From: a virus
Direction: 5' to 3' (one strand)
IMG/VR virus record: IMGVR_UViG_3300024518_006187
Span: 1-47,090 of that record
Length of the DNA: 47,090 nt
A program made the translations under genes and the position numbers. The notes below the pieces were generated by a model that searched no databases, was not told the DNA's origin, and saw nothing but the letters and a program-made list of their open reading frames with translations. This document shows positions 12,201 through 45,499 of this stretch, piece by piece; position 1 is the stretch's first letter, and each line of letters starts with the position of its first letter.

Positions 12201-15200
12201 ATACATACTCTTTTCTATCATATAGTAGAAATTTACTGGGCGAGTTTGTTTTGTAAAAAGCTGCTCGTCCTCGATATTGAAGACCTTGACCATATCGTAT
12301 GAATTTACTATTTCCGGAGTTGTCTGTTTTGCGACTGGCAAAAATTCAACATTTATGGCCTTTATATCTTCTGGATAGAAGAAATCTGCGCGGCCAGTAT
12401 GCTGTTTTCCTACGACATTCCCCATCCAGGAGTATCTTTGGGAAATTTCAGAGGATCCAGAGGAATAATCTAAAACAGTAAATCCCGCATCTGGAACTGT
12501 TGGTACTCCACCTCCAGAATCTGAACCAGTTATTTGATCAAATCTCCATTGAAGTGCCAGAGTTTCCATTTCTGGAATTTCTGTTCCTGTTAAAGATGTC
12601 ACAAAATTATAAGAATTTTTATATGGAGAATAAGATCCAAAATTATCTGAATTTTTAGCGTGTGTTATAATTTCACTATCATTAAGATGTTTCATCCAAT
12701 ATTTTACACTAGATATCTTTAAATCAGATCTGTGAATTGTGGATCCAGTGAAATCTTGCCGGTGGGCGCCAACATAAATTCTCTTTGGCTCTGTTAAGTA
12801 TTTGTCTCCGTCAGTCGTGACTGAGCTGGTTAACAAAATTTCTTGATTAATTATATCTGCGTCTGTGTTGACGGCATAAAGTTCCAAGTCATACTCGGAA
12901 ACATCCGTGCCATCTACTAAGTCAGCATGCTTTCGTGTTGGCCCAAATCTTAAAGCAATATTCCATTTTTTATTGGTATATAGATCCTCGATAATATCAC
13001 TTTGAACATCTATTCCGAAAAAAGAACTAGTTACCACAAGATATCCATCTTTTTGGTTTCTATTTGTATTCGGTCGTACAGAATATACTTGTAAATCGTA
13101 ATCTGTAGAAGGCCAGGAGAAATCTGTCGGTGTTGTCGCGTCTGCCGTATGAAATCCAAAAATAGAGGACGTTTGGAACGGCGTCACATAATAAACATTG
13201 TTGTCAATTTCTTTCTTTTTCGGAAAAATTGCTTCGACTTCGTAAGTGAAGGATGTATATTTTTCCAAAGAGGCGGCAGAGGCGGAAATAAAAGAGACAC
13301 TATTTGGATTTCCGGAAGAGGTTTGCTGATATATTGTTGAATTGAAGGTATCTGGTCGATAAAAATCCACAAAATTCTTCTTTGTATATGAAAAATCATA
13401 ATTTTCATTTAGGTTATATACCAGATTGTTCGCATAAGCGTTAATTTTAATTAAATTCTCGTCTACTCCATAGCACCTTATTAAGTTTCTGAAAGAATTT
13501 GTTGTACCCTTTGATTTATAAATTGATACAATATTGTTGTAAATGTTTTTATATATGATATTTTTTATATTAAACAGCTCGTCAGAAAAATCTTTCTCTT
13601 CATCTCTGTTAAAAATTTGATTCAATACAGAAGAATCTGTAAAGATTTCTGGAGATATTAATCCAATATGTCCCAGCAATTCATCAGAAAATGGAATCTC
13701 CTTGTTACTTCCGCTCACATATGAAATATTTTTAATCTTATTAATTTCTTGGATTTGAAGTTGGAGAGTATCCAAATAGCTTGACATTATTTGGGTTAGC
13801 TTCTTTAGGTTTCCACTTTCATCGCCAGCAGTATCTTCGTCGATTATCCAATTTGGAAAATTATTATATAATGAAGTTGAGTTATTGTAATCATAATATG
13901 TTCCAGATAACTCCATCTCATTAGATAATGAAATAACCAATGGATGCTCTGGATAAATAATTGGGTCCCTGAACTCTGCTTGAGCTGCGCCTGCCAATAC
14001 CATGGCGGAAGAGGTTTTTCTAGAATTTGAAGTGTATCCTGTCCAATTCCCGTTTGTTATTCTTCCCGAGTAATCAAGAACCGATGAATCAATGGAAGAA
14101 TCTCCAACAATTCCTTCATTAAATTTATAATAAACTCCCAAAGAGGCATTTGATATGTCGCTATTTGTTCCGCCATATACTTGTGTAAACCAATATCGAC
14201 CTATATCCTCCGAAGTTCTTGACTCTTTCCAAAATCTAAATTCATCCAGCGATCCAGAGAATTTTCCCCAGCCACGGCCGGCGAAGTCCGAAGTTCCATT
14301 TGAGGCAGATGTAATTAGGGCGCCTATTTGTGCGTTTAGGGCGCCTGTAACTTCATTAAGATTTGATCCAGATGAAGTTGATTCTATTAGATCTCCGTTT
14401 ATATAAAAATCTGTATTTAGTGCTGATCCAGAGTTATATACCCTAAAGGAATAATGACCAAATGTCTGCAATGTTGATAATGTTATATTTTCGCCAAATG
14501 GCTGACTTATAAATCCATCAGATCCCGACCTAACTGTCAGGCGAAATGGAGATGGGGATCCCACGAATAAATCAAATGTATTCAATTCTAGAGTAACTCG
14601 ACCATAAGAGCCAGCAGAAGATGTTGTGTTGTTCCACAAATCAAAAATTACTTCTTTTTGTGTTCTGTTTATGTCTACGGCTTCTTTTTTCAACCAAAAT
14701 TCAACAGTAATTCCATTATCAAAATCTGTCTTAAGGTTACTTTCCCTGCTTCCTTTATTAGTAAAGCCCTGATCATCGTAAATATTTTCGTCATATACAT
14801 TAGAATCATCAAATGTCGAATTTAATGTTTTCCCGACCATTCCCCCCGAAGCAGTATGGGGGCCTCCTTGAAAATATATGTATTCGTCCACGGTGGGGTG
14901 ACCATAATAATAGTTTCCAACATTTGGAAATCCACCTGGCTCTACACCTCCCCAGCCCTCTGCGGAAATATCTATATATCCATTTGTTCTCGGATATTTA
15001 TTCTCCAGTAACCACAAATCTATGTACGTTGATTGATTTAAAAATTCTTGTTTTTCTTTTGAGGCGCCGTCATAAGGATAATTTTCATAGATTCTTGTTA
15101 TTGAATCTTCATAATATTGTTTTGCAGATCCATATCTAGCAAAATTTTCAGGATTGGAAAAATCAATTTGAGGTATAAATCTATTTTTATTTTTCCAAGT

Positions 15201-15305
15201 TTCCGAAATATTTCCCAAAGATTCCCCGTCATTCCTTATATCCTCCGGCTCTTGGGAGAATATTGAATACGGTGTTTCCCCATCAAAAAGATTCCTAATG
15301 CTCAT
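6279..15305 (-). CDS. Giant baseplate/tail protein with LamG-like domain and gpI-like segment, 3008 aa
   Basis: This 9-kb gene dominates the window. Residues about 195-375 read as a LamG/concanavalin-A-like sandwich: an ITVEFWLKK strand, a YSFRVYNSG strand, DFYINGDLIES, and a closing SGSLDEFRFWKESRTSED motif typical of laminin-G folds that bind sugars. A weaker second concanavalin-like unit appears at about 660-880 (KISSVKYWMKHLNDSEI). Between them, residues about 465-625 carry a helical region ending in YKSKGTTNSFRNLIRCYG, which resembles the KGT motif of P2 gpI-type tail proteins. The remaining 2000 residues are beta-rich, Asn/Ser/Tyr-rich and unrecognised. The start overlaps the upstream stop (ATGA). 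The gene order gp25-like, gp6-like, this gene parallels P2 W-J-I. I infer a baseplate wedge or peripheral protein with receptor-binding ability. Confidence 0.85.
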   Translation of the reverse strand: MSIRNLFDGETPYSIFSQEPEDIRNDGESLGNISETWKNKNRFIPQIDFSNPENFARYGSAKQYYEDSITRIYENYPYDGASKEKQEFLNQSTYIDLWLLENKYPRTNGYIDISAEGWGGVEPGGFPNVGNYYYGHPTVDEYIYFQGGPHTASGGMVGKTLNSTFDDSNVYDENIYDDQGFTNKGSRESNLKTDFDNGITVEFWLKKEAVDINRTQKEVIFDLWNNTTSSAGSYGRVTLELNTFDLFVGSPSPFRLTVRSGSDGFISQPFGENITLSTLQTFGHYSFRVYNSGSALNTDFYINGDLIESTSSGSNLNEVTGALNAQIGALITSASNGTSDFAGRGWGKFSGSLDEFRFWKESRTSEDIGRYWFTQVYGGTNSDISNASLGVYYKFNEGIVGDSSIDSSVLDYSGRITNGNWTGYTSNSRKTSSAMVLAGAAQAEFRDPIIYPEHPLVISLSNEMELSGTYYDYNNSTSLYNNFPNWIIDEDTAGDESGNLKKLTQIMSSYLDTLQLQIQEINKIKNISYVSGSNKEIPFSDELLGHIGLISPEIFTDSSVLNQIFNRDEEKDFSDELFNIKNIIYKNIYNNIVSIYKSKGTTNSFRNLIRCYGVDENLIKINAYANNLVYNLNENYDFSYTKKNFVDFYRPDTFNSTIYQQTSSGNPNSVSFISASAASLEKYTSFTYEVEAIFPKKKEIDNNVYYVTPFQTSSIFGFHTADATTPTDFSWPSTDYDLQVYSVRPNTNRNQKDGYLVVTSSFFGIDVQSDIIEDLYTNKKWNIALRFGPTRKHADLVDGTDVSEYDLELYAVNTDADIINQEILLTSSVTTDGDKYLTEPKRIYVGAHRQDFTGSTIHRSDLKISSVKYWMKHLNDSEIITHAKNSDNFGSYSPYKNSYNFVTSLTGTEIPEMETLALQWRFDQITGSDSGGGVPTVPDAGFTVLDYSSGSSEISQRYSWMGNVVGKQHTGRADFFYPEDIKAINVEFLPVAKQTTPEIVNSYDMVKVFNIEDEQLFTKQTRPVNFYYMIEKSMYRAITDEIVNFFSTILDFNNLIGDPVNRYRQEYKALGKLRSLFFEKVDDTPDVERYIEYYKWIDSSLSEMLMNLFPASAIKQDGLRTVIESHILERNKYWNKYPTVDMKQSDPESGIRGINELLYNWKSGHRPVSGEERESCFWWKERAERGEPPLATGDAGVDSDKEQILSTTISALNRKFSTPLRLKVDESKIISTGLNIKNNIRENIKKSVKFGVSEGIEVPADKLDSTVNCVDDLTPVSKIKIPYEIQNKISADPYMTAAGDLLAPFVSIATENFLKNGITINSGYNKKINDEFQPGFSIENMHIDSYINSEVPLQGPFTEKWVGGNQHRHIPLNRGTDNSSNRPEAWNMEFQSVPTALKFIHQPVNSPRAMLYRDMVAKRILNIKNIKDNAATGELGNYRKDYEIVQTCGRTENNSAFVKAGGFSVTESPSPYVAGLSDYTKPQRGRTEHVFVNRFSSPGDPSTAGDSDGGPQLDPEAAEFSVYNAINYRNTEVREIQRLLLASHVNQFGFYSDSFGIGNGPSFVNSLNYNGTGSVYQVNRNTIRQMKDSGSTTVTASVYNNFYVQHPIPRTDLQYAWITASAISYNTFGYLPYDGEGDLVTFSSASDFVSYTRTGFLPSPSSFGSDKKELGSFGAGPSAYTITEFIPTVYSWLNYNVYEPLEYLNSFTGFSPTDVDISSSVNGKLIDGGFMGKLPFDGKPSLLNATLLKRNGPYRHPSWKQTRGYENPLVKKWNSSNITAYNLRDDNAKFREDPPIISKYKPMNHILKVARNVVDSGAPMITFDNLRINSSYGNEKTLFANRQISLDIEKSNDNFLTSYDRVLNLYTNSALDVVANPVQEIKYFSYQEQIYPSTINMYSKRNRERIGYKNTFWRNSREDRTDLGKDKFGGENSQGYVVSQSAWALDAAEQFGTGLSTYIAESASIGSSGELQNDYTMAYRLIDGNVGDDEAILPSPIYARKHTMGSVYSAVSPTGPQALRNAVLSPTFLTSSELTASAWPTISTFNQLGHISIFGGNAKFEAHEMAGYIEDGQFISSPSTPFYDKYELYVHNMRLKNKDMSLIPEFRISDHIQKYLNDSNGFLASNTASFSIFGINQDNTETVFYKTTGSQPFLYDIQVSEDTPQNSGQDNFYRIYSFSDFMEYFDIVSEEHDKIEDLPKSLTLSCKALMKFIAYDGFYPAERTLEIANAFSESYAPFVVGSTYSKDIPGLGSSSAIAGDIDTLKMRPFMAPFFSPGIMYNTIKSGIAVDYPIYTSSYETIRYFNYSGSGAPAAVDYSDYYAVGRDAGEGGILHHRFSFESLLDPVSNIKDISIYDMEPHPSCSIPVTAKLQNPEESDLNLNNYKLIVNNFFGEIPNFFLKNESLTSLISKNQEDGFTVKNGEYYGMRIAIRGKKSTNSLGRESAGDVPQQFGKARIGVPSDALNEPELMTMYSRPSAFGPPMAGTSSFSGTFDASPGLIVDTLLNDSVNGYYTPYTPPYYIGEAWADVMFQASADGNVTLDEIFANASVKYWRVFNNFINGLSAGGHWPSGEDNSYPMHQKNINLNAMQISSSVNLFLKEFVPSNDLTKLTPRWVIQSKFETPILNFGDQKTSPLNFGNITTPTTGSDPWLGYCGKTTTPIGMWHQFGTIPEGNNGISLEVREISQQWREYAANPGALIGGTPLSPEDRAFYNDGNFKSLAEVVGFSESTAGAPTTKVSRMGKLSDSKKVYEAVVAVPFVENEAIKKLGKAENLNRDKKLFFELPVIASFAEDTEINKRNPKVLFPPGTSQDILDMAEKVWKRYVFPPQFDFIRNLKAKPVAMYIFDFEHTFDKNDLSYIWQNIAPKFGTQFKESVATISHPLMTGEMIKTMKNKVKWMVFKVKQRAETNYYNKIVGSSKAEDRLFGYNWPYDNFSMVEFAKMDAQISYGSPLTLDASTAPISQTGLPPTNDISLTNSSTTAEAKKRKSDVLTQGAVAKQLSEQEKK

Positions 15306-27772: not shown

Positions 27773-28741
27773 TTAAATTTCCTTCATCCACCTTTCTATC
27801 ATCTCTTGAAGCATCGACTCGAATGTGTATTCGGGGGCCCACCCAAGAACATCGCGAGTAGTTTGCGAATCACCTTTCAGATATTTAAGCTCTTCTGGTC
27901 TCATATATTTTGGATTTTGCACGATATAATCGCGATAATCCATATCCAATTTGGTAAAAACTACTTCACAAAGATCCCTGACAGAGTGAGTTTCTCCGGT
28001 CGCAACGATAAAATCTTCCGGAGTATTATGATTGATAATCTTCATCATGGCCCTAGTATAGTCTTTCGAATGTCCCCAATCTCTATAAGAATCTAGATTT
28101 CCAAGTTCAAGCTTGTCTTTCAACCCTCTTTTGATTTCAACTGCCGTTTTTACAACCTTATTTGTAACAAAATTTGTCCCACGTCTGGGAGATTCATGAT
28201 TAAAAAGAATTCCATTGCAGGCGTGAAGACCATAGGCGTGCCGATAGTGCCTAACTAAATTATACCCAAGTACTTTTGAGCACCCATATGGACTTACTGG
28301 ATTCATTGGGGTAGTTAATCTTTGAAAACCATCTTCGTCAACCGAATTTCCAAACATTTCCGATGAGCTGGCTTGATAGAATTTTGCATGAGGTACAACA
28401 GTTCTATAAATTTCCAGCATATTCAAAACACCCAAAGCGTTGGTTTGAATAGTAAAAGAGGGAACGTCAAAACTAATTCTCACATGACTCATCGCTCCTA
28501 AATTATATATTTCATCTGGTTGTACTTCAGACATTATTCTAAAGAGTGAGGGGTAATCTAATAAATCTCCGTAAAAAGTTTCTACTTTTTTATTAATATG
28601 GACAATACGAGAATTTTGATTTTCAGCTACTGAGTGTCGCCGAACTATTCCGTATACCTCATATCCTTCTTCTATCAAGTGTTCGGATAAATAGCTTCCG
28701 TCTTGGCCGCCGATTCCTGTTATTAAAGCTTTTTTGGTCAT
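27773..28741 (-). CDS. gmd: GDP-mannose 4,6-dehydratase, 322 aa
   Basis: This short-chain dehydrogenase-type enzyme converts GDP-mannose to GDP-4-keto-6-deoxymannose, the precursor of GDP-fucose, GDP-rhamnose and GDP-perosamine. The Rossmann motif GIGGQDG is at residues 9-15, the RRHS segment typical of Gmd at 34-37, the catalytic Ser-Ser-Glu around 126-128 (QASSSEMFG), and the Tyr152-x3-Lys156 pair in SPYGCSK. The length is slightly shorter than bacterial Gmd (about 350-370) because the C-terminus is compact. It overlaps the methyltransferase gene by 4 bp (ATGA) and is the last gene of the glycan operon. No GDP-fucose synthase (Fcl) is visible in the window. Confidence 0.95.
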   Translation of the reverse strand: MTKKALITGIGGQDGSYLSEHLIEEGYEVYGIVRRHSVAENQNSRIVHINKKVETFYGDLLDYPSLFRIMSEVQPDEIYNLGAMSHVRISFDVPSFTIQTNALGVLNMLEIYRTVVPHAKFYQASSSEMFGNSVDEDGFQRLTTPMNPVSPYGCSKVLGYNLVRHYRHAYGLHACNGILFNHESPRRGTNFVTNKVVKTAVEIKRGLKDKLELGNLDSYRDWGHSKDYTRAMMKIINHNTPEDFIVATGETHSVRDLCEVVFTKLDMDYRDYIVQNPKYMRPEELKYLKGDSQTTRDVLGWAPEYTFESMLQEMIERWMKEI

Positions 28742-29371: not shown

Positions 29372-29971
29372 TTATTTATCCTTTGTTTTAAAAATTTCCA
29401 TTTTTGTTAAATCTGGCCAGTCTTCTACAACCCATTGTTTGGGGGGAGTGGCTATTGCGGCGGGTAATTTTTGTAATCCTAGCGTGGCCGTTTCTGGTGT
29501 CATATAATAATGGTATCCCATTGATGTTATATTTTGTTCTCTCCAGGGGATATCCGGATCACGGCCGTCATACGTCATCTTTTTTAACTCTCTGGCGTCT
29601 ATACTATTATTACATAATATAACACCTCCACGACCTAATGTCAAGTGTTTTTTGAATTGAAAGCTAATATTCATAAAAGTTCCAGGAATATAACTATTTT
29701 TTTCCCACAATACGGCGGCGTCAATAACTCTATCTGTTAAATAATAATAATTTTTCCAATTCTCCTCTTTCCAAGTCATCTCTATTCCAAGTTTTTCAGC
29801 AAGGAAGGGGATGGATATATAGGTATGTTTTGGTACTACAATTTTATCAGCCTTAATATATCTCAAACATAACTCAACGCCGTGAGTACAGCAATCCACA
29901 GCGACGGCATACGGCGCGCCAAAAAAGTCTGCTATTTGATGCTCAAATTCTGATATAACTTTAAAACTCAT
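29372..29971 (-). CDS. Compact DegT/DnrJ/EryC1-type sugar aminotransferase, 199 aa
   Basis: The chain keeps the PLP-site hallmarks of DegT/DnrJ/EryC1/StrS enzymes: a VIDAAVL segment with the pyridine-nitrogen Asp84, and SFQFKKHLTLGRGG, where Lys108 aligns with the Schiff-base lysine of SFHxxKxxTxGEGG. The family normally runs 360-400 residues. This one is about half as long and lacks most of the small C-terminal domain, with internal loops also shortened. With gmd in the same operon, amination of GDP-4-keto-6-deoxymannose to GDP-perosamine is a plausible reaction. The retained lysine argues against a ColD-type dehydratase, which has His there. It could be an active minimal enzyme or a degenerate one. 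Confidence 0.78.
   Translation of the reverse strand: MSFKVISEFEHQIADFFGAPYAVAVDCCTHGVELCLRYIKADKIVVPKHTYISIPFLAEKLGIEMTWKEENWKNYYYLTDRVIDAAVLWEKNSYIPGTFMNISFQFKKHLTLGRGGVILCNNSIDARELKKMTYDGRDPDIPWREQNITSMGYHYYMTPETATLGLQKLPAAIATPPKQWVVEDWPDLTKMEIFKTKDK
29616..29644 (-). promoter_or_regulatory. Possible internal promoter (TTGACA / 17 bp / TATATT)
   Basis: On the minus strand TTGACA lies at 29644-29639 and TATATT at 29621-29616, with a 17-bp spacer, inside the DegT-like gene. It could add transcription of the methyltransferase and gmd. It overlaps the conserved coding of LTLGRGGVIL, so chance is a serious alternative. Confidence 0.3.
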
Positions 29972-29987
29972 AATTTATTCCCTTCCA

Positions 29988-30581
29988 TTAAAAGTATTTC
30001 TCATATAAAATATTTTTTTCCATATATTCATCCCAACTAGTTAAATCATATATTTTTTTATTTTTCAGTTTACCATCTCTATAAACGGACATAGATTTTT
30101 GTTGGTGGCTATCAATTTCTAATAAAAAGGTAGTCACATCGATATCGAACCCCATAAATTTTATTATATCATCCAATGATTTTCCGCTTATTAAATCCTC
30201 ATACCTGATTAATATTTTATCACCAACAAATTTATCATATATTTGCAATGAATTTAGATAATAATCTAGTTCAAATTTTACGTTAGCCCAATTGAAGGAC
30301 TTTGGATATGTTCTTATCAGATTTGAAAAAGCACTTTTTTTATAATCCCTTAGTAGAAAAATTAATTTATCTTCTTGTTTTAAAAAAGAAGGTGCCATTT
30401 TATGTCCATATTTTAATATTATTTTCTTATCCGTGATCGTTATATTATCACATAACGTGTATATGGGGGGATCCCAATCCAGACTCCCATATAAAAAAGA
30501 AGTTGGGCGATGGGTCAAATATTCCACACAATATCTTAACCAGTTCGCGCCGCTTCTAGGGTGAGATAAAGAATATATCAT
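29988..30581 (-). CDS. PAPS-dependent sulfotransferase-like protein, 197 aa
   Basis: The N-terminus SLSHPRSGANWLRY (residues 4-17) is the 5'-phosphosulfate-binding loop of sulfotransferases, which normally reads sxPRSGsTWl. The 3'-phosphate motif is recognisable at IFLLRDYKKSAFSN (74-87, Arg78), and ILIRYEDLIS is the family's typical YEDL strand. Such enzymes transfer sulfate from PAPS to a hydroxyl or amine; here a sugar is the likely acceptor given the surrounding glycan genes. The length of 197 residues is short compared with about 250-300. It overlaps the acyltransferase gene by 1 bp. No PAPS-synthesis gene is seen, so the donor would come from the host. Confidence 0.85.
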   Translation of the reverse strand: MIYSLSHPRSGANWLRYCVEYLTHRPTSFLYGSLDWDPPIYTLCDNITITDKKIILKYGHKMAPSFLKQEDKLIFLLRDYKKSAFSNLIRTYPKSFNWANVKFELDYYLNSLQIYDKFVGDKILIRYEDLISGKSLDDIIKFMGFDIDVTTFLLEIDSHQQKSMSVYRDGKLKNKKIYDLTSWDEYMEKNILYEKYF

Positions 30582-31111
30582 TATTCTAATTCCTTTGCTT
30601 TTCTTTTAATTTTATTTCCATCGATGATTTTGACTAGTTTAGCTGGATTTCCTTTATAAACGCCCCAGGCTGTAGTATCGCCAATTAAAAGCGAGCCAGC
30701 AGTAATCAGAACGCCCTCTCTTAAAATTGATCCCGGGAGAATGATGGCATTCGTGCCCACATTTGAAAATTTTTCCATTATAACGGGTTCGATAATTTGT
30801 TCCCCCTTAAGGTGAGTTGGGATAAGTGTTCCAAATAATCCGGAGTCGTCAAATCGATCCGAACCACAAATAATTCTTGCGCCGGCCATTATATTATTAA
30901 ATCCTTTAGCGACAAATAGACCATCTTTTCCTCCAATACAGGTAACATAGGGCCCGATGTGAACATAATCTCCTAGCTTAAGTTGCGTGGTACAATAAAA
31001 ACCTTTATCAACAGCTACATGATTTCCCATCTCCACGCAGTCTTCCCTTTTAAAAACAACGTCTGATGCGATGAACACATCTTCGCCTTTATTTTTCATA
31101 CATCTATCCAT
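30581..31111 (-). CDS. Hexapeptide-repeat (left-handed beta-helix) acyltransferase, 176 aa
   Basis: The sequence shows the [LIV]-G-x4 hexapeptide rhythm of left-handed beta-helix acyltransferases (LGDYVHIGPYVTCIGG, FSNVGTNAIILPGSILREG, LITAGSLLIGD), followed by the usual WGVYKGNPAKLV end motif of sugar O- or N-acetyltransferases. The acceptor is not evident. Beside Gmd and a DegT-like enzyme, N-acylation of an amino sugar such as perosamine is plausible. The start at 31111 overlaps the upstream gene by 16 bp. An internal Met at 31099 is also possible, with a weak ribosome-binding site. Confidence 0.85.
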   Translation of the reverse strand: MDRCMKNKGEDVFIASDVVFKREDCVEMGNHVAVDKGFYCTTQLKLGDYVHIGPYVTCIGGKDGLFVAKGFNNIMAGARIICGSDRFDDSGLFGTLIPTHLKGEQIIEPVIMEKFSNVGTNAIILPGSILREGVLITAGSLLIGDTTAWGVYKGNPAKLVKIIDGNKIKRKAKELE

Positions 31112-31929
31112 TCTTTGTCAAATCTTTGGGGCCACCAAATTGTTATTGAGGTGTCCGCATATTTGTTCCAATGTGGAACTATTTTGGCGCCGTAAAAACA
31201 ATCATGCAATAATTTATCGTCGTATCCATATATGTTTTTAGCCTGATCCGGTCCAGCAGCTGAATAATCTTTTTCGGCTTTTCCGTCTTTGTTTAAGAAC
31301 ATTTCAAGGGGGATATTTTTATCTTCTTCTGCCAACAATTCATTATCTACGAAAAATAAATTATGATTATTTACTCTAAAAATTAAACTATATCCCTTAG
31401 ACTCTCCCAATTTTTTAAAGGCAGGAATAGAGGCACCATAATAATAAATTGAAGGCACCGTTGAATCGAGTGTAGGATTATATTTTATGGCCTTAGAATC
31501 CCGTTGGTTGGGAAAATTACAGTTGAATTCGGCCACCACCACTCTTGGTCTAAATCTGCTTTCATCTAATGCTTTCCACACCCAATAATCGTTCCCATCT
31601 AAATCAATGGATAATAGGTCAAAAGACTCTGGAACATTATGTTTATCAAATAGATCATTTATATTTTCCGCAGTAATAAATGCATGCTGAACATAATCGA
31701 GCTTGTCGGCTTTTTCTTTGTTACCCTCCAACAAGAGACCATTCCATCCCTGATCTATTCTGAGTCTGGCTGTATTAGAAAATGCAATGCCATCCCAGGC
31801 GCCGAATTCAACAAAGTATTTATTTGTAGTGCCAATATTATCAAAAATACCTTCGATTATTCCATCCTCTATGGTTTGAGAATAAATTCTTTTTCTGTAA
31901 TTTATTAATTGATCTGCAAATGGTTTCAT
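31096..31929 (-). CDS. FkbM-like methyltransferase-fold protein, 277 aa
   Basis: Residues about 38-48 (YFVEFGAWDGI) form a SAM-binding motif I, followed by the acidic position in NGLLLEGNKEKAD, and FDLLSIDLDGNDYWVWKAL resembles the D-x-DGxxxW/E motif of FkbM-type proteins. The C-terminal 130 residues form an additional domain (AKNIYGYDDKLLHDCFYGAK) not typical of small FkbM enzymes. FkbM family members commonly O-methylate sugars. The start is supported by AAGGA. The gene lies 11 bp after the classical FkbM gene, and its end overlaps the acyltransferase gene. Confidence 0.78.
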   Translation of the reverse strand: MKPFADQLINYRKRIYSQTIEDGIIEGIFDNIGTTNKYFVEFGAWDGIAFSNTARLRIDQGWNGLLLEGNKEKADKLDYVQHAFITAENINDLFDKHNVPESFDLLSIDLDGNDYWVWKALDESRFRPRVVVAEFNCNFPNQRDSKAIKYNPTLDSTVPSIYYYGASIPAFKKLGESKGYSLIFRVNNHNLFFVDNELLAEEDKNIPLEMFLNKDGKAEKDYSAAGPDQAKNIYGYDDKLLHDCFYGAKIVPHWNKYADTSITIWWPQRFDKEWIDV

Positions 31930-31940
31930 TTAAAATTCCT

Positions 31941-32552
31941 TTATTTTTCCCACGCTTCCCAGACAAAGGGATAATTAAAAATTTTATTATATCCCAAAGC
32001 TGATAGGCTGTTTTGAATGCAATTTCGTTCGTGAAGACAATCAATCCCTTGGACTTGATGGAATTGAATTTGTAATTTTTTGAATCGGTTTATGGTCCCT
32101 GTGCGGATCCACTCTTTTAAGACTGTGTATTCGGCACCCTCTATATTAATTTGAACTAGATCTACTTCTTGAATATTAAAATCTTCTAGGATTTCTTCAA
32201 TCGGATACAAGGAAATTTTAGTAGTTCCGGAAGGCGAGTCATTTAAACAAAGCGTTGCATCACCGTCTAAATTAATAGTAATTTCTTTGCTCACGTCAGG
32301 GGAAACCCCCACCATTTTAGACAAAACTCTTGGAGAATTCAAAAATCTTTGTTTTAGTATTTTATAAAAGTCTGGTACTGGCTCTAAAATATAGATTTGA
32401 CAATCGTATTTTTCTAAAATTTGAGATGCCCATACACCAGTATATCCTCCGATATCCAGTACAATAGAGTCTCTGTTCAGATTATGATTTAAATTATGAG
32501 TGAGATCGCCATTGTCAGCAAACCATTTTTTAATACTCTCTTGGTTCAACAT
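31941..32552 (-). CDS. FkbM-family methyltransferase, 203 aa
   Basis: The SAM-binding motif VLDIGGYTG is at residues 31-39, IYILEPVPDFYKIL supplies the acidic motif II, and DLVQINIEGAEYTVLKEW is the diagnostic FkbM motif (D-x-IKIDvEGaE). The length is normal for the family. FkbM enzymes transfer methyl groups from S-adenosylmethionine to hydroxyls, often on sugars in polysaccharide or antibiotic pathways. It lies 3 bp downstream of the cupin gene. Methylation of a glycan assembled by the neighbouring glycosyltransferases is inferred. Confidence 0.88.
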   Translation of the reverse strand: MLNQESIKKWFADNGDLTHNLNHNLNRDSIVLDIGGYTGVWASQILEKYDCQIYILEPVPDFYKILKQRFLNSPRVLSKMVGVSPDVSKEITINLDGDATLCLNDSPSGTTKISLYPIEEILEDFNIQEVDLVQINIEGAEYTVLKEWIRTGTINRFKKLQIQFHQVQGIDCLHERNCIQNSLSALGYNKIFNYPFVWEAWEK

Positions 32553-33000: not shown

Positions 33001-33819
33001 TTATTTATTTATGTATTCCTCCCAAATAAAGTCTTCAGGGTGCTTAAAATTGCAAGCTATTTCAAAATTTTCCTCTATATGTGATAGTTTATCATGATAT
33101 AGGTCATATGTCAAGTCACAAAGCGAAAAATCTTTTAAATTAATTATTCCTTCCGAATTAAAATAACTGTCCACACAGGGAGAACCATAATAAACCGGAA
33201 TTGTCCCAACAACAAAACAATCTGTTATTTTTTCGGTGAACATATTATTATAATTTCCATTTTCCATCGCCATTGAGAAACAATAATCTTTGAGTCCGTC
33301 TATCTTGTTTTCAATTTGTCTTTCTCTTCCACGGCCGAAAATATCTATTTTATTTTTTAATTCATTGGCTACTTGATTCCGGTAGGTATGATCAGGGCAC
33401 ATGTTTTTAATGGAAGCAATCATCGAAATTAATTTAGTTTTTTGATATAATTTCCTGTCTTTTGGCAAGATCCAAGAAGTGGCGGGAGGGGGTATTAATT
33501 TTATTTTCTTTGACACATCCAGGAGCGAAATATCATGAGTGAAAATATATTCATAATTATTTTCTAATAATTCAATTCTGTCGACGACATTTTGGTATAA
33601 GGGGCCGATTATTGTTTTAGATTCACTCAACATTGCGTAGTTTGTTTTAGATTTATCCACCGGAGAGAAGATAGCGTTATCGACATGAATTGAAATGTCC
33701 GACGAGTTATCTAAAACCCATTCTACCTTGTTAGGAAGAATATATCCATTAGTGCTTAAGCAATGATTAAACCCGCCTCCAATAAGATTTATTTTCCCTT
33801 TTTTCAAATTTTTATCCAC
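33001..33819 (-). CDS. GT10-type alpha-1,3/1,4-fucosyltransferase-like protein, 272 aa
   Basis: The GT10 signature is clear in the C-terminal half: KDYCFSMAMENGNYNNMFTE with Glu186 and Asn187, then the TEK triplet (195-197), and DCFVVGTIPVYYGSPCVD. In family members these residues bind GDP-fucose. The N-terminal half is less conserved, as usual for the acceptor-binding domain. The start read from the frame is GTG at 33819, overlapping the upstream fusion gene by 16 bp, without a clear ribosome-binding site; a TTG four codons on is an alternative. GDP-fucose could come from Gmd plus a host or distant Fcl. The enzyme may also use a related GDP-deoxysugar. Confidence 0.85.
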   Translation of the reverse strand: MDKNLKKGKINLIGGGFNHCLSTNGYILPNKVEWVLDNSSDISIHVDNAIFSPVDKSKTNYAMLSESKTIIGPLYQNVVDRIELLENNYEYIFTHDISLLDVSKKIKLIPPPATSWILPKDRKLYQKTKLISMIASIKNMCPDHTYRNQVANELKNKIDIFGRGRERQIENKIDGLKDYCFSMAMENGNYNNMFTEKITDCFVVGTIPVYYGSPCVDSYFNSEGIINLKDFSLCDLTYDLYHDKLSHIEENFEIACNFKHPEDFIWEEYINK

Positions 33820-35342
33820 TCGGAAGGAATTAAATCTTTGGGATTTTCTTTTATTTTAAATCCAAACCACTCATTCGGGGCTACTATTCTCTTATTTTCA
33901 TTGAGATTAAGCCATGCGGGCCACCAAGAAAATGAGGAGTTCGCAATAATATTATTTTTGCAAAGGGACATTAAATAGAACTCTATATAATCCTTTTCGT
34001 TCTCAATAAAAATAAATTTATCTCCCTTAAAGGTTTCTTTACACCACTCAATATCATCGCTAAAAACTAAATAAAAATCAGCTTTTGGAAATAATTTTAT
34101 TGCTTTTTCATAATAATCTTTAGACAGTACCACATGGTGGTCGGGGAATTTTAAATAATCCCCCCGCCTTATATGAAGAGAAACAGTGTTTGAATCTAAA
34201 AACTGAGAGTATTTTTTTCGTATTTGTTTTTCCATCTCTTCCGGCATTTTAAAAATATCTCTTATTTCATTTGAATTATGGTGGAAATATTTTTCACTCT
34301 GAAAAAACCCCTCAAGGATACTATCGTCGCTGGAAAAATTGATTTCTTCATAATAGAAGGGGAAATTAATAACTCGTTCCGTTCCGGTGGGGCCCAAAAT
34401 ATTTAAATTTTCAAAAATTTTCAAATATTCATTAGCGTGTTTGAGATTTGGATTGTAGGTTTTATCATCATTTAAATAATCTAGTTGTTGATGCAAATTG
34501 GGGAAAGAAGCCATCATTCCTTTATCTGCGGCCAAACTTAGGGTCGCGGCTATTTGGAACATCATGTTTGCAAAACCACCTTTTAAATAACAATAAAGTA
34601 TTTTAATTTTTTGATATTTGGGTTTATGTCGAATTTCGTGTTCTAATTTAAGCTGTAAAGTATTGTCTATTTTATGATCATTTAGAGGATTATCTAAATT
34701 ATAGACATACATGACTTCTTCAACATAATGACTTCGGTGGCCCGACATTTCTAACATCGGAAACATAAACGCAAGATCCCAAGTCATCTTATAAAAATTT
34801 CCATCCCCATCTAAAAGATCTTCTTTTTTGATCCTTTCCCAAAGATGATATTTGAATGTTCTAAGGTGCGAAGAGCACCACTCAAAAGATCTGAATGAAT
34901 TGGTTTCTATAATATTTTTAGGAATTTGTTTTGCGAATTTGCCGCGTCTATTATTTGGATATTCCGCATAACTCCCATAAGTGATCCAGCATTTTGAAGA
35001 ATTGTAGATATTATTTACCTTTTCCAAGACATCCCTAGATGCCAACCAATCGTCGCCATCGAGAGTTAAAATGATGTCTTCTGCTTTCGGATTTGAGATA
35101 TTAATCCCATCATAAATATTTTTTAGGGCTAGTGCCTTTTCAGTATTCGCAATTAGTTTAAACCTTTCGTCACCCTCAATTTCCTTCCTGATAACTTCTA
35201 CACTGGAGTCTGTGGAGAGATCATCTAGAATAATACACTGAAAATTTTTATACGTTTGGGCCTTTACAGATCTTAAACAAATTTTAATCCACTTTTCAAC
35301 ATTATAAAGGGGAATAACAATTTTGAAATGATTATCTATCAT
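33804..35342 (-). CDS. GT2-GT11 fusion: bifunctional glycosyltransferase, 512 aa
   Basis: Residues 1-235 are a GT2 (GT-A) domain: VIPLYNVEKWIKICLRSVKA, LDDLSTDSSVEV, and the metal-binding LDGDDW at 94-99. Residues about 246-510 are a GT11 alpha-1,2-fucosyltransferase-like domain beginning ILYCYLKGGFANMMFQIAAT, with the donor-binding HIRRGDY motif at 390-396 and the NSSFSWWPAWLN motif at 468-479. Each half is near full length, so one polypeptide could add two successive sugars. The fused genes overlap their neighbours by 4 and 16 bp. The order GT2 then GT11 in a single frame, with no internal stop or start signal, supports a true fusion. Confidence 0.88.
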   Translation of the reverse strand: MIDNHFKIVIPLYNVEKWIKICLRSVKAQTYKNFQCIILDDLSTDSSVEVIRKEIEGDERFKLIANTEKALALKNIYDGINISNPKAEDIILTLDGDDWLASRDVLEKVNNIYNSSKCWITYGSYAEYPNNRRGKFAKQIPKNIIETNSFRSFEWCSSHLRTFKYHLWERIKKEDLLDGDGNFYKMTWDLAFMFPMLEMSGHRSHYVEEVMYVYNLDNPLNDHKIDNTLQLKLEHEIRHKPKYQKIKILYCYLKGGFANMMFQIAATLSLAADKGMMASFPNLHQQLDYLNDDKTYNPNLKHANEYLKIFENLNILGPTGTERVINFPFYYEEINFSSDDSILEGFFQSEKYFHHNSNEIRDIFKMPEEMEKQIRKKYSQFLDSNTVSLHIRRGDYLKFPDHHVVLSKDYYEKAIKLFPKADFYLVFSDDIEWCKETFKGDKFIFIENEKDYIEFYLMSLCKNNIIANSSFSWWPAWLNLNENKRIVAPNEWFGFKIKENPKDLIPSEWIKI

Positions 35343-36172
35343 TGAAATGCTCCCGCGACTTTTTTCAAAATCTCCGCTTTCTTGTTCGTCATAATATCAA
35401 TCAATTCTTCGCCCTTCTTCTTAAACCAAGGCTCACTGGAGGCTCCAACTCTAGAATTTGTCACCACCCCCATATTCATCATTCGGGCCTCGACAACAAT
35501 TCTTGATAAGGTTTCTGGAGTTTTTGGAAGAAAGATCAATTTAAAATTATTACTCAAATTATCTAAAAATTTATTATATGGCGATGGTGGTATTAATTCA
35601 TATTGAATTTTATTATATTCACAATAGACCACCGCATCGCGAGTATTTTTATGCTCAATGTTTGAGTGCATGATAGAATATTTTCTAGCTTTTTGCTTTT
35701 GACAATTTTTCTTCATTAGCGCCAAAGACTCGTCAGACCATAAATTACCACCCAAATTTATAATATTATCCAATCCTAAATTTTTTTTCACTATTTCAGA
35801 ATGAAATTTAGATTGACAAAAAATTGCAATAGCGCTCTTATAAAAATTATAATTTACTATTTCTTCTTTTGGCGCGATATAGTCCTCATATAGAGCCGGA
35901 TTTCGAGATTTTAAATATTTATGATCGTGCTCATAAATAACATATCTCATTTTTGTTAATCTTTTTTTTATTTCTTCAGATAAGTGCATAAAATTTGATA
36001 TTATATAATTCTTTTTGTTATTTTTTTCAAGATATTCTTCTGTTAAATCTCTGCTTTTGATTTTTTTAACAGTTGACAAAGTAGACAAAAGAGAGACAAA
36101 TTCTTCATTATTCAACTCTCCTCCGCCCAAAATTTCATCAGAAAAATAGTCTGCTACAAAAACAAAATTCAT
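35339..36172 (-). CDS. GT-B fold glycosyltransferase-like protein, 277 aa
   Basis: The N-terminus FVFVADYFSDEILGGGELNN resembles the first strand and Gly-rich loop of GT-B glycosyltransferases. The middle carries SAIAIFCQSKFHSEIVKKN, and the C-terminal region FLPKTPETLSRIVVEARMMN has an acidic spacing like the E-x7-E motif of GT4 enzymes, followed by MGVVTNSRVGASSE. The length of 277 residues is short compared with about 350-400 for GT4, so the second Rossmann domain is compact. Donor and acceptor are unknown. ATGA overlaps on both sides tie it to the flanking glycosyltransferase genes. Confidence 0.7.
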   Translation of the reverse strand: MNFVFVADYFSDEILGGGELNNEEFVSLLSTLSTVKKIKSRDLTEEYLEKNNKKNYIISNFMHLSEEIKKRLTKMRYVIYEHDHKYLKSRNPALYEDYIAPKEEIVNYNFYKSAIAIFCQSKFHSEIVKKNLGLDNIINLGGNLWSDESLALMKKNCQKQKARKYSIMHSNIEHKNTRDAVVYCEYNKIQYELIPPSPYNKFLDNLSNNFKLIFLPKTPETLSRIVVEARMMNMGVVTNSRVGASSEPWFKKKGEELIDIMTNKKAEILKKVAGAFQ

Positions 36173-37440
36173 TCAACTTCTCTTATATCTTCCTGCAATT
36201 CACTCAACCAACCTTCCATATCTACTCCGTCATCTGAGTCCGAATAGACATTTTCGCAAAACCGGCTATACATTGTCTCTTCTGTAAAGGTTCCCACGAG
36301 ATACTTTTGGAGTTTTTTAGCATTTCTCTTGAACCGAGAATATTCACTGCGTACCTCTCGGAGTCTTCGTTTAAAAGAAGCCTCCCTTGGAAATGCCCAT
36401 TGTGAATCCGCCTGAATCACCCCATTCCAGACTGCCTCTGGCTGAACATTTTGAAGTTCATATTCAATAGATGCAAACATTGGCTTTTTCTTTCCGTTTT
36501 TTCTTCTTGTATCTGGCATATAGAGAAAATCACAATGGCCAGACCAACCAGGAACTGCGACAGGTAATCCATTATAGGCCGCTTCGAAAAGTGGCAAACC
36601 AAACCCTTCACCGTGGGTTGTTGAAATAAGGCATTTGATTTTTGGGCATTGATATAGCCCCGTCATCTCTTCTTCCGTTAAATCTCCGTGCAAAAGATAT
36701 ACCTTACATTTTCTTTCTCCATGTTTTGCAAGGATATTTCTTAATTTTTTTTCTGTATGTTCCCTATCAATAATACTATTATTTTTAATTGAAGTTTTTA
36801 ACACTAGACCGACTTCTTGATCAAAATTTTCTTCGACAAACCAATTAATCAGATTATTAAAATTTTTTCTTGGGCCCCACTGTGATATTGCGAGATAATT
36901 GAAATCATATTCTAATTTTAAATTAACTGATTTCTTCTTAAAATTTCTTACCGGATAGCCGACTGCCTCAACTGGCGTTTGAGTAATCAAATTAATAAAT
37001 TGTCCTGTATCTTTATGCTTCCCCTGATATGAAGTATTCTGAAATATTTCTTTAGAGTGATTTGAAACAACAATTATTTTATCCATTTCGTTTGCTTTTT
37101 GGATCCAAACTGGTGCAACTTTTGTCGTTTCTATGCCGGCTGTATATCCTATATTAATTGGTGCCAGACGTTTCCACTCATTTGGAATTGTAATTTGTAA
37201 AGAAATATCATATTTCCCTTTCATCTGATTAAAGGCATGCGTCTGAGCTATTTTTTGATCTATCCAAGTTCTTTCTTCGTTCGCAAGACTTACCCATCCG
37301 GTTTGTCCCCACTTTGTAGGAACAATATAAATATCAAAAATATCCTCCCTAGTTCTCAGTGCGCGCAACGCGAACCGTGCCTGCTCCCCATACCCAGATT
37401 GTGATAAAACTGGCCCTGTTATTAAAACCCTCTGTCTCAT
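36169..37440 (-). CDS. GT4-family glycosyltransferase, 423 aa
   Basis: A full-length GT-B enzyme. The acceptor domain includes GPVLSQSGYGEQARFALRAL. The nucleotide-sugar site is AISQWGPRKNFNNLINW, and the retaining GT4 E-x7-E motif is HGEGFGLPLFEAAYNGLP with Glu278 and Glu286. No signal peptide or transmembrane segment is seen, so it would act in the cytoplasm or at the inner membrane face. It lies between two other glycosyltransferase genes with 4-bp ATGA overlaps at both ends. The specific sugar transferred cannot be read from sequence. Confidence 0.88.
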   Translation of the reverse strand: MRQRVLITGPVLSQSGYGEQARFALRALRTREDIFDIYIVPTKWGQTGWVSLANEERTWIDQKIAQTHAFNQMKGKYDISLQITIPNEWKRLAPINIGYTAGIETTKVAPVWIQKANEMDKIIVVSNHSKEIFQNTSYQGKHKDTGQFINLITQTPVEAVGYPVRNFKKKSVNLKLEYDFNYLAISQWGPRKNFNNLINWFVEENFDQEVGLVLKTSIKNNSIIDREHTEKKLRNILAKHGERKCKVYLLHGDLTEEEMTGLYQCPKIKCLISTTHGEGFGLPLFEAAYNGLPVAVPGWSGHCDFLYMPDTRRKNGKKKPMFASIEYELQNVQPEAVWNGVIQADSQWAFPREASFKRRLREVRSEYSRFKRNAKKLQKYLVGTFTEETMYSRFCENVYSDSDDGVDMEGWLSELQEDIREVE

Positions 37441-38696
37441 ACAATCTCCCTAATTTCCCAAGGTTTATATCCTCTTCTTGTTTCCCAGGATCCATGGTTT
37501 TCTATGATAGAGTCCATCAAATTAATCCAATTTTTCTTATAAGTCTCAAAATTATAATTTTTAACAACATGCTGGCGCCCCCTTATTCCAAGAATTTTTC
37601 TCTCATTGTGAGACATCAAAAAAATGTCTCTCAGAGCCTGTATAAAGTCCTCTTTGGAAACCCTATCTTCGTAGATGTATGGAACCTGCTGAGAGCCTAT
37701 GATGGCCTTTGAAGCCGGTGTGAGACCTATTCCAAACCACTCTTTTCCATCCGTAACTTGCTCTTGCAATCCGCCCGTCATATTAACAATAATAGGAGTC
37801 TGGCATGCTAGTGATTCCAGAGTTGCCAACCCGAAACCCTCAGCATCTGATATATTAATGGTGCAATCAGACATATTATACATTGTTGCCAAAACAGATG
37901 GATGAACTTTTTTGTTCGATAAAAGAATGCGGCCGTCGTCTGCATTTAAATTTGATATTAAAACATTCAGGTCTTGCCCATTTGGGTCATTGGGGTCGGT
38001 ATGCATTATCAATCTTACATTTTCTGGGCCCACTTCCTCTGCGAATTCATTAAACCAAGTAACTAGGGATCCGCTCATTTTTCTTCGCGCGTTCCTATTG
38101 TTCCAAAAGAAGGTAACTCTATTTTTATCTTCCCCAAATTGTTTACTTCTCGTCTCTCTGATCTCCTCATCCGACATTGGAGAAAAAATATTCATATCTA
38201 CTGCGTGTGGAATATAATGATTTTCAACATCTGGGGCGACATTATTGACAATATCATATGTTACTTTTGAAATAGAGGCGATGATGTCTGTTGAATCATA
38301 AAACTTTTTATTATAATTTGGATATGGATAATTATCCCACACATGATAATAAATCATTGGAACATGTACTCTAATTTCATTTTCCAATACCCACAACCAT
38401 TCATAAAATCTGGGATCTGTCATAAACCAAAGAATATCTGGCTTTTCGTTAAAAATAGCCGATCTAACCATTTCCTGTGTACCATAACCCTTTACTGGAT
38501 AAACAATCCAATCATCTTCCCACCCCTCTATTTTTTGTGGATTATAATCCTTATGTTTAACTGCTCCACCCAAACAAATAAATTTATATCTGCCAGTTTT
38601 TAACAGCGTTTCAATAACATACCTTGTCTGTGTGCCGACTCCCGATGGGGCCAGAGGGTGATCAGCAATCACCAAAACCTTCTTTTTTTCTGTCAT
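37437..38696 (-). CDS. GT4-family glycosyltransferase, 419 aa
   Basis: A full-length GT-B protein, not closely similar by eye to its neighbour but in the same clan. The N-terminal loop is ADHPLAPSGVGTQTRYVIET (Gly-rich, acceptor side). A FFWNNRNARRKMSGSLVTWF segment marks the start of the donor domain. The E-x7-E motif is SDAEGFGLATLESLACQTP with Glu286 and Glu294. It is the first dedicated glycosyltransferase after the nuclease gene (9 bp gap) and overlaps the next glycosyltransferase by 4 bp. Role: one sugar-transfer step in the assembly of the phage-encoded glycan. Confidence 0.88.
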   Translation of the reverse strand: MTEKKKVLVIADHPLAPSGVGTQTRYVIETLLKTGRYKFICLGGAVKHKDYNPQKIEGWEDDWIVYPVKGYGTQEMVRSAIFNEKPDILWFMTDPRFYEWLWVLENEIRVHVPMIYYHVWDNYPYPNYNKKFYDSTDIIASISKVTYDIVNNVAPDVENHYIPHAVDMNIFSPMSDEEIRETRSKQFGEDKNRVTFFWNNRNARRKMSGSLVTWFNEFAEEVGPENVRLIMHTDPNDPNGQDLNVLISNLNADDGRILLSNKKVHPSVLATMYNMSDCTINISDAEGFGLATLESLACQTPIIVNMTGGLQEQVTDGKEWFGIGLTPASKAIIGSQQVPYIYEDRVSKEDFIQALRDIFLMSHNERKILGIRGRQHVVKNYNFETYKKNWINLMDSIIENHGSWETRRGYKPWEIREIV

Positions 38697-39467: not shown

Positions 39468-39878
39468 TTATTCCTCAGTGACAGATTTTGTCTCGGGTAA
39501 GATGGGAGATTCTTTTTTCTCTTTTACTATTATAACATCTTCAGAAGATTTGTCAAGTTGTTTTTCAGTTTTTTTTGCCTTTCTTGGTGTATTTTTAGAA
39601 GTTTTCCTTGTTGTGCGTGTCTTGGGCCTCAATTTCGGCTTAATATGGTCGGCATCCTCAAAAATCCAAATATCACTACATGATCCTCTAAAATTATCTA
39701 TTTGGCCAGTTTTTAAGCATTCTCCCACATTTAATTTATAATCGTTAATTAATTTTTCTTTAACTATTCTTTCACTTAAATATATCCTCTTTTTACAATT
39801 CCTGTGTCTATATTCAAGTACGGAAATTTCGCAAACTATTTTATTGCTTTCTTTTTTAATTTTAACTTCCATCTTCAT
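39468..39878 (-). CDS. Unknown protein with basic, low-complexity tail, 136 aa
   Basis: Residues 1-80 form a small, possibly beta-rich domain with four Cys (KIVCEISVLEYRHRNCKK, VGECLKTGQ, GSCSDIW). Residues 85-136 are a low-complexity, Lys/Arg/Thr-rich and then acidic tail (KPKLRPKTRTTRKTSKNTPR). The basic tail could contact nucleic acid. The ATG at 39878 has an AGGAG ribosome-binding site five bases upstream and overlaps the previous gene by 17 bp. I do not recognise the family. A promoter for the following operon is embedded in its 3' end. Confidence 0.72.
   Translation of the reverse strand: MKMEVKIKKESNKIVCEISVLEYRHRNCKKRIYLSERIVKEKLINDYKLNVGECLKTGQIDNFRGSCSDIWIFEDADHIKPKLRPKTRTTRKTSKNTPRKAKKTEKQLDKSSEDVIIVKEKKESPILPETKSVTEE
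39529..39556 (-). promoter_or_regulatory. Sigma70-like promoter (TTGACA / 16 bp / TATAAT) inside a coding region
   Basis: On the minus strand TTGACA lies at 39556-39551 and TATAAT at 39534-39529, spacer 16 bp. It is within the 3' part of the 136-residue gene, about 62 bases before the TTG start of the nuclease gene, so it could drive the nuclease and glycan genes separately from the genes upstream. The spacer holds a perfect 6-1-6 palindrome. Confidence 0.65.
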
Positions 39879-40551
39879 GTAACTCCTGTATTTTTATATA
39901 AAGTTCTGGGCATATATTTTCTAAATATCTTCTATCGTCTAAAAAATAATATTCAAAACCATTTGCGAAATATTCTCTCAATGATGTTGCGCAGTACGCG
40001 GATGTAAAGAGATTATATGACGCACAAATAAAATTCAATCTATCATATCCAACTATTTTATATAAAAAATTATCAAGCTCTAATGAATATTCCGAATCCA
40101 TCATTAAATCACTATCAGGATTTAAATCTTCTTCTTTTAAAATATTATATAACTTTTTTCTCTTTTGTAAAAATTCTCTTTCTATTTTTCCATCGCCATA
40201 TATTAAATAACCGTGAGGTATTTCCAAAGAGTGCGCAATCTCATGAACAATGTCGTCAATTAAATCTTGTTCATCATCTTGTTTATTACTAACATATATA
40301 GCGCCGTCTTTATACGCCGCATTCGTTTCCATTTTATTAAATTCATCAAACATTCCAACATATATGGAATCTATTTCCTTAGTTAGATGTGGTGGAATTG
40401 AAGTATTTATTATATCCAAAATGTCTCGTATATCAATTCCATTTTCCAATTTGTCTTTTATATAAACTTGCACTGATTCACTCATAATAAATTCTTTTTG
40501 CTGTTGTTGAGCATTAAATGTTGATATCTTTAAATAGTCAAGTTTATACAT
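39862..40551 (-). CDS. Putative zinc metallopeptidase (HExxH), 229 aa
   Basis: The motif IVHEIAHSLE places HExxH at residues 103-107, on a predicted helix. About 90 residues later, SLREYFANGFEYYFLD offers Glu193 as a third zinc ligand in the E-x-F-A context seen in anthrax-toxin-lethal-factor-like and related peptidases (gluzincin type). No signal peptide is visible, so the enzyme would act in the infected cell. The first 22 residues may not be translated: a Met at 40485 (MSESVQVYIKD) is an alternative start, and neither has a strong ribosome-binding site. The target is unknown. Confidence 0.75.
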   Translation of the reverse strand: MYKLDYLKISTFNAQQQQKEFIMSESVQVYIKDKLENGIDIRDILDIINTSIPPHLTKEIDSIYVGMFDEFNKMETNAAYKDGAIYVSNKQDDEQDLIDDIVHEIAHSLEIPHGYLIYGDGKIEREFLQKRKKLYNILKEEDLNPDSDLMMDSEYSLELDNFLYKIVGYDRLNFICASYNLFTSAYCATSLREYFANGFEYYFLDDRRYLENICPELYIKIQELHEDGS

Positions 40552-44998: not shown

Positions 44999-45027
44999 AA
45001 TATATCACGACCTCAATCCGTTGTCAA
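44999..45027 (-). promoter_or_regulatory. Sigma70-like promoter (TTGACA / 17 bp / TATATT)
   Basis: On the minus strand TTGACA lies at 45027-45022 and TATATT at 45004-44999, spacer 17 bp. The predicted start is near 44992, a few bases before the CAU tRNA. The -35 box overlaps the end of the upstream hydroxylase-type gene. It would drive the tRNA-to-81-aa-gene unit. Confidence 0.7.
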
Positions 45028-45477
45028 GTCTTTTTTATAATAAGTTCCAAAAATTTTATCAATGACTGGCATTGTACCTGAAAAATTATGCCTTGCAGAT
45101 TTTCTGTGATGTATATAATGATGATAAGAGCAAGGATTATCCTGGTTGTCATTGTGCATCCTGTGGTGTAACCACTCATAATAGAATGCGTAAGAGATGT
45201 ATCCGATCGCGAAAGAAATCGAGACTAAAGATATCAGCAAGAATGCGAGTCCAAATAATAGTTTTGCCCACATTGGCAATAATAGGTGATTATTTCTTTT
45301 TTCATTATAATCATTCCTGTGGTGAGTCATATGAAGTCTTTTGATGTGGTGTAGGAGCGGCCACTTACCAAGGGGTCCATGGCCAACGAATCTGTGATTT
45401 AAATAAAATATCAAAGATGTAAAAAGAAATCCAACAATAAATAAAATTAACTCAATCAACACACTTTCCCCCATCAT
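45013..45477 (-). CDS. Fatty-acid hydroxylase/sterol desaturase-superfamily membrane enzyme, 154 aa
   Basis: Histidine boxes match the di-iron membrane hydroxylase superfamily: HRFVGH, HHIKRLHMTHH, HHRMH and HHYIHH, followed by FGTYYK, resembling the D-x-x-GT end of the family. Two hydrophobic blocks (about residues 8-28 and 71-101) span the membrane. At 154 residues it is short, close to the small carotenoid or fatty-acid 2-hydroxylase type cores. I start it at the ATG at 45477; an adjacent TTG is less likely, and no clear ribosome-binding site is visible. It may hydroxylate a host lipid during infection. It lies 22 bp after the LpxH-like gene. Confidence 0.82.
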   Translation of the reverse strand: MMGESVLIELILFIVGFLFTSLIFYLNHRFVGHGPLGKWPLLHHIKRLHMTHHRNDYNEKRNNHLLLPMWAKLLFGLAFLLISLVSISFAIGYISYAFYYEWLHHRMHNDNQDNPCSYHHYIHHRKSARHNFSGTMPVIDKIFGTYYKKDLTTD

Positions 45478-45499
45478 CAATATAATTATATGATATTTT

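Follow-up and report, generated by a model that had tools for sequence, protein, structure and literature searches.

The locus raises the question of whether two glycosyltransferases that some related phages encode as separate genes have truly become one protein and, if so, how they were joined and what their product would do. The window, that is the whole stretch of 47,090 nucleotides that was analysed, is an IMG/VR virus record of an incomplete genome carrying baseplate-wedge genes, in line with the label 'phage' given to it in a first-pass annotation.

Two glycosyltransferase domains in one frame

Translation of positions 33804-35342 gave a single uninterrupted frame of 512 codons on the minus strand. 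The features of this region are as follows.

33804-35342, minus strand: fused GT2-GT11 gene, 512 aa
34623-35342, minus strand: GT2 domain, residues 1-240 (PF00535, GT2 tree and synteny), part of the conserved upstream core
33807-34601, minus strand: GT11 domain, residues 248-512 (PF01531, GT11 tree and synteny), part of the exchangeable downstream cassette
35049-35060, minus strand: DGDD motif, residues 95-98, GT2 half
34155-34175, minus strand: HIRRGDY motif, residues 390-396, GT11 half
33921-33941, minus strand: NSSFSWW motif, residues 468-474, GT11 half
34599-34601, minus strand: fusion joint, codon ATA (Ile248), where separate-gene relatives have the GT11 start ATG
33001-33819, minus strand: GT10 (alpha-1,3-fucosyltransferase-like) gene (PF00852), overlapping the end of the fusion gene by 16 nt

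The first-pass annotation had proposed that a full GT2 and a full GT11 domain, recognised by these three motifs, share one frame, and the motifs and Pfam matches bore this out. PF00535 matched residues 8-133 (3e-22; 79.8 bits versus a curated cut-off of 23.3) and PF01531 matched residues 237-510 (1.8e-26; 93.5 bits versus 23.9), while PHROG 2644 (glycosyltransferase) matched residues 254-512 (2.7e-62). Since the scores were well above the Pfam cut-offs and the PHROG match was found as well, chance can be excluded for both domain matches. The HxRRxDY and NSxFSWW motifs of the GT11 family were both present, starting at residues 390 and 468. An AlphaFold2 model of the 512-aa protein, built from 36 sequences, had a mean pLDDT of 91.8 and a pTM of 0.84, with two well-folded predicted domains. 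The nearest PDB folds were GT-A enzymes that match the GT2 half, such as SpsA 1h7q and 5hea. Because these fold neighbours include enzymes that use different donors, the donor of the GT2 half cannot be read from the fold.

The neighbouring GT10 gene passed the PF00852 cut-off (5.9e-11; 42.8 bits versus 23.9), and the best solved-structure matches of its product were the alpha-1,3-fucosyltransferases 5zoi and 2nzw. When it was aligned with the Helicobacter pylori FucT residues Arg195, Asn240, Tyr246, Glu249 and Lys250, whose donor-site roles have been described (PMC7826918), Tyr246 was replaced by Met and the other four were kept. A profile scan with the window's own GT10 returned two relatives only. 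The first-pass observation that two fucosyltransferase families lie side by side was upheld, and the association goes beyond mere adjacency: in 13 relatives, GT2, GT11 and GT10 are joined in a single chain.

The joint and the boundary between core and cassette

In the separate-gene relatives L003, L016 and L111, the sequence ATGA combines the GT2 stop with the GT11 start in a 4-nt overlap. In both the window and L096, the GT11 start ATG has become ATA and the GT2 and GT11 frames are brought together; just before this site L111 has AT, as compared with GAG in L096. The linker in the window contains no in-frame ATG, GTG or TTG. L096 is an independent contig that is colinear with the window across most of 40 kb, the protein identities lying largely between 40 and 90%, and it carries the same fusion at 66% identity. 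Although the closest separate-gene relatives depart from the fused frame at the joint by a small shift, the recurrence of the fusion in L096, the GT11 start codon mutated in both contigs and the linker devoid of start codons rule out a sequencing frameshift or assembly artefact for practical purposes. Relatives show both separate GT2/GT11 genes and fusions; neither of the outcomes that the first-pass annotation had named as speaking against a fusion, a frameshift or halves separate in all relatives, was found.

The surrounding genes that bear on the position of the joint are listed here.

37437-38696, minus strand: GT4 glycosyltransferase of the core (profile match and synteny)
36169-37440, minus strand: GT4-like glycosyltransferase of the core (profile match and synteny)
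35339-36172, minus strand: u277, core gene directly upstream of GT2, conserved in L096, L098, L003 and L099-L101
32556-32999, minus strand: u147, downstream-cassette marker, 63-79% identical in cassette relatives
31941-32552, minus strand: FkbM methyltransferase (PF05050)
31096-31929, minus strand: FkbM-like protein (below cut-off)
30581-31111, minus strand: hexapeptide acyltransferase-like protein (below cut-off)
29372-29971, minus strand: short DegT aminotransferase-like protein (PF01041)
27773-28741, minus strand: GDP-mannose 4,6-dehydratase, gmd (PF16363, 1.2e-110; structure match 1db3)

Judging by gene order and sequence kinship, the joint is the meeting point of a conserved core (GT4-GT4-u277-GT2) and an exchangeable cassette (GT11-u147-FkbM-DegT-GMD). 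The closest kin of the window's GT2 half were L096, L098, L101, L099 and L003 (60-68%), and those of its GT11 half were L096 (64%) followed by L111, L124 and L121 (51-53%), the GT2 of the latter three being merely about 40% identical to that of the window. The kin assigned to the window differ between the GT2 and GT11 trees because the gene maps of core and cassette follow different relatives: between PhoH and GT2 the window is colinear with L096, L098, L003, L101 and, as far as the locus reaches, L099 and L100, while between GT11 and gmd it looks like L016, L111 and L110. Strong core genes together with the u147 marker occurred only in the window and L096; in L123 and L152, u147 was paired with a weak u277 match (35%). 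The comparison of L096 with L098 places the boundary precisely. Upstream, the two share 80% DNA identity over 5.7 kb, rising to about 97% within GT2, and their homology ends at the end of GT2, from where they are unalike; in L098, GT2 is unfused and the separate GT11 gene is a different one. From these maps, the fusion evidently sits at a boundary where phages exchange cassettes. The locus captures the birth of a multi-domain glycosyltransferase, in which neighbouring genes of different modules were joined at a recombination boundary, and this boundary lends itself to a direct test of the means by which phages diversify the sugars that they make. Another conserved member of the upstream core, at 39862-40551, gave a weak, below-cut-off Pfam match to the ATLF domain, which is not evidence of a toxin.

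Fusion states and origins among related phages

Profiles built here were run on all fetched loci, yielding 156 non-redundant GT11 domains (95% identity). GT2, GT11 and GT10 formed a single chain in 13 of the 156 contexts, a GT2-GT11 fusion adjoined a separate GT10 in 5 and stood alone in 6, so that GT11 was fused to an upstream GT2 in 24; in a further 28, GT2 was the adjacent upstream gene, and the remainder lacked a close upstream GT2. These proportions are biased by the scans, which place full-length matches at the top of the ranking. Among fused or adjacent pairs, GT2 was the upstream partner of GT11 in 52 cases and the downstream partner in 3, and all fusions were GT2-first (24/24). Pfam confirmed the three domains in L004, L006, L008 and L017. 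The structure model of a triple fusion reached a pTM of 0.59, and its domain arrangement was therefore left unused. Fused, adjacent and swapped states are all found among these related phages.

Several other arrangements were seen at these loci. GT2-GT10 fusions with GT11 as a separate gene at the same locus were found at L059:2539-4191, L060:131-1783 and L062:5947-7641, Pfam-confirmed for L059 and L062 and by profile match for L060. A UDP-galactopyranose mutase is fused to GT11 at L032:4657-6624, and GT2/GT7C-like and GT25 domains are fused to GT11 at L047:5956-8193. Behind GT2-GT11-GT10 in L008, a fourth domain (L008:8581-8850, residues 872-961 of a 1085-aa frame) bears a weak resemblance to GT29 (sialyltransferase), with E 1e-4 and 22.1 bits versus a cut-off of 23. 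At L029:6001-6753, one TAG lies inside the GT11 match; it may simply mark where the frame ends, or it may hint at a reassigned stop.

In the GT11 tree, the window and L096 formed a pair (support 99) within an 18-row clade (100) whose other 16 rows are unfused. Elsewhere lay the L007 group of seven double fusions (100) and the triple-fusion group of 16 rows (99). Forcing all fusions into one clade cost 103 log-likelihood units, and the AU test rejected a single ancestral fusion (p-AU 8e-5); under a constraint that united the window pair with the triple fusions alone, p-AU was 0.016. In trees of 51 pairs, the L007 and triple-fusion groups mostly fell together, and these two may share one origin. 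At least two origins of the fusion are supported, and three are likely. Across the pairs, GT2 and GT11 distances correlated (Mantel r 0.62), with 0 of 2000 permutations as high.

Among 50,697 isolate phage records, no single place matched as much as 80% of either the window protein or a triple fusion. A megablast DNA search of isolate phages gave no match, and blastn gave one short match, to the GT10 region of S-SRM01. A search of the open-access literature found no GT2-GT11 or GT11-GT10 phage fusion. Multi-domain viral glycosyltransferases are already known; what appears new, within reach of these searches, is that phage contigs carry a GT2-GT11-GT10 series, that its members were fused repeatedly and that the joint coincides with a cassette boundary.

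A candidate sequential glycosyltransferase

The closest working precedent is PgtA of Dictyostelium and Toxoplasma, in which a GT2 domain adds beta-1,3-Gal and a GT74 domain then adds alpha-1,2-Fuc on Skp1 (PMC6939170). PgtA resembles the window protein as a single cytosolic chain in which a GT2 and an alpha-1,2-fucosyltransferase domain add sugars in sequence (PMC6939170). Unlike the phage protein it is eukaryotic, its acceptor is GlcNAc on Skp1 hydroxyproline and its domain order varies by species; as the second domain of the window protein is GT11 rather than GT74, this protein is outside the PgtA family. A111/114R of chlorovirus PBCV-1 has galactosyl-, xylosyl- and fucosyltransferase domains (PMC7826918) and thus, like the triple fusions, is a viral single-chain multi-glycosyltransferase with an H. 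pylori-like alpha-1,3-FucT domain last. It belongs, however, to an algal virus, its first two domains are different and no GT11 domain has been reported in it; compared with its three domains, the window protein has two glycosyltransferase domains and 13 relatives have three. The best viral fold match was Bodo saltans virus A0A2H4UUT1 (494 aa, named alpha-1,2-fucosyltransferase), which aligned over both halves but is a giant-virus protein with 22% identity, its domain make-up being deduced from the fold alignment only. GT11 also occurs in sugar clusters of cyanophages (Synechococcus phages Bellamy and S-SRM01; S-SCSM1, where it accompanies GDP-fucose genes, PMC9602691), although there the GT11 half alone matches the window protein. 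A 664-aa Saccharibacteria protein (L085), one of the fused cases of the census, has GT2 and GT11 in one chain and in the same order, but it is bacterial, distant in sequence and has more than 200 residues between the two Pfam matches.

Since the region holds several glycosyltransferase genes, methyltransferase-like and acetyltransferase-like genes and gmd, we regard it as a glycan-building cluster. Gmd catalyses the first step towards GDP-fucose and other GDP-6-deoxyhexoses; for the window gene, TIGR01472 was the best match, yet below its cut-off. The DegT-like protein is only 199 aa long and matches two separate parts of its family, with similar short forms in the L016 and L096 contigs. No hydrophobic stretch of transmembrane strength was found in the cluster proteins, nor could a flippase, polymerase or ligase be recognised; because of this, assembly is likely to take place in the cytosol, on a protein or host carrier.

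We consider it fairly probable that the fused gene encodes a soluble, sequential bifunctional glycosyltransferase that works like PgtA, on the strength of the fixed domain order, the repeated independent fusion and the PgtA precedent. The GT2 half would be the last enzyme of the conserved phage glycan-assembly core, after GT4, GT4 and u277, adding a sugar to the growing glycan in the cytosol. The GT11 half, as the first enzyme of the exchangeable decorating cassette, would then take L-fucose (or a 6-deoxyhexose related to it) from the GDP-linked donor and attach it to that sugar, and the separate GT10 could add a second such residue nearby. The glycan might decorate a protein of the virion or a polysaccharide of the host surface and change recognition by hosts, other phages or grazers. 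If the halves do act in sequence, these proteins would provide ready-made single-chain fucosylation enzymes.

Overlapping genes can also fuse neutrally: the stop and start may have been lost with no gain, leaving two independent enzymes with different acceptors. With the 4-nt overlap of the separate genes, one small indel and one substitution suffice, and fused, adjacent and distant states vary freely among relatives. We nevertheless hold this to be unlikely, as fusion occurred repeatedly and always in the same order, and was retained at the observed divergence between the window and L096 with purifying selection on the GT11 half (dN 0.25, dS 1.5, dN/dS about 0.17; dS of the GT2 half was saturated).

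There is a comparably small chance that the GT11 half transfers a GDP-6-deoxyhexose other than L-fucose. The window has gmd and no recognisable GDP-fucose synthase (fcl), and therefore GDP-fucose may have to be made with a host enzyme or with one encoded where the genome is missing; alternatively, a different GDP-6-deoxyhexose may be the donor. Moreover, a DegT-like gene lies two genes from gmd, so that the product may be GDP-perosamine. Like the Met at the Tyr246 position of the window's GT10, this counts against the main reading. On the other hand, GT11 and GT10 are both fucosyltransferase families, the window genome is incomplete and a host may supply the enzyme. Among related records with fused or adjacent GT2-GT11 pairs, to which the counts were confined and many of which are fragments, gmd was found in 34/50 and an fcl-like gene in 30/51; in the triple-fusion records L017 and L105, gmd and fcl-like genes lie next to each other, at a distance of about 2 and 9 kb from the fusion.

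That one half is catalytically dead, serving only as a scaffold or acceptor-binding part, is improbable in view of the dN/dS of GT11 and the invariance across eight fusions of D95, D97 and D98 in GT2 and of R392, R393, N468, W473 and W474 in GT11.

Within the sequential reading, a bolder extension strikes us as doubtful: the triple fusions and the two-gene form of the window might make a difucosylated Lewis b/y-like terminus, as a repeatedly arisen assembly line whose cassettes are traded at the GT2 boundary, with GT2 as the fixed docking point for exchangeable terminal sugars.

A role in defence was also considered and rejected, as neither the glycosyltransferases nor gmd matched anything in PADLOC; the only matches were weak ones, helicase-like for PhoH and Cas4-like for the PD-(D/E)XK nuclease. 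Elsewhere in the window, 6279-15305, adjoining the baseplate genes, encodes a protein of 3008 aa that has a laminin-G-like lectin domain (PF13385, 1.5e-6) close to the N-terminus, and 45013-45480 is a fatty acid hydroxylase-like gene (PF04116, 3.6e-12) that is conserved in the L096 contig.
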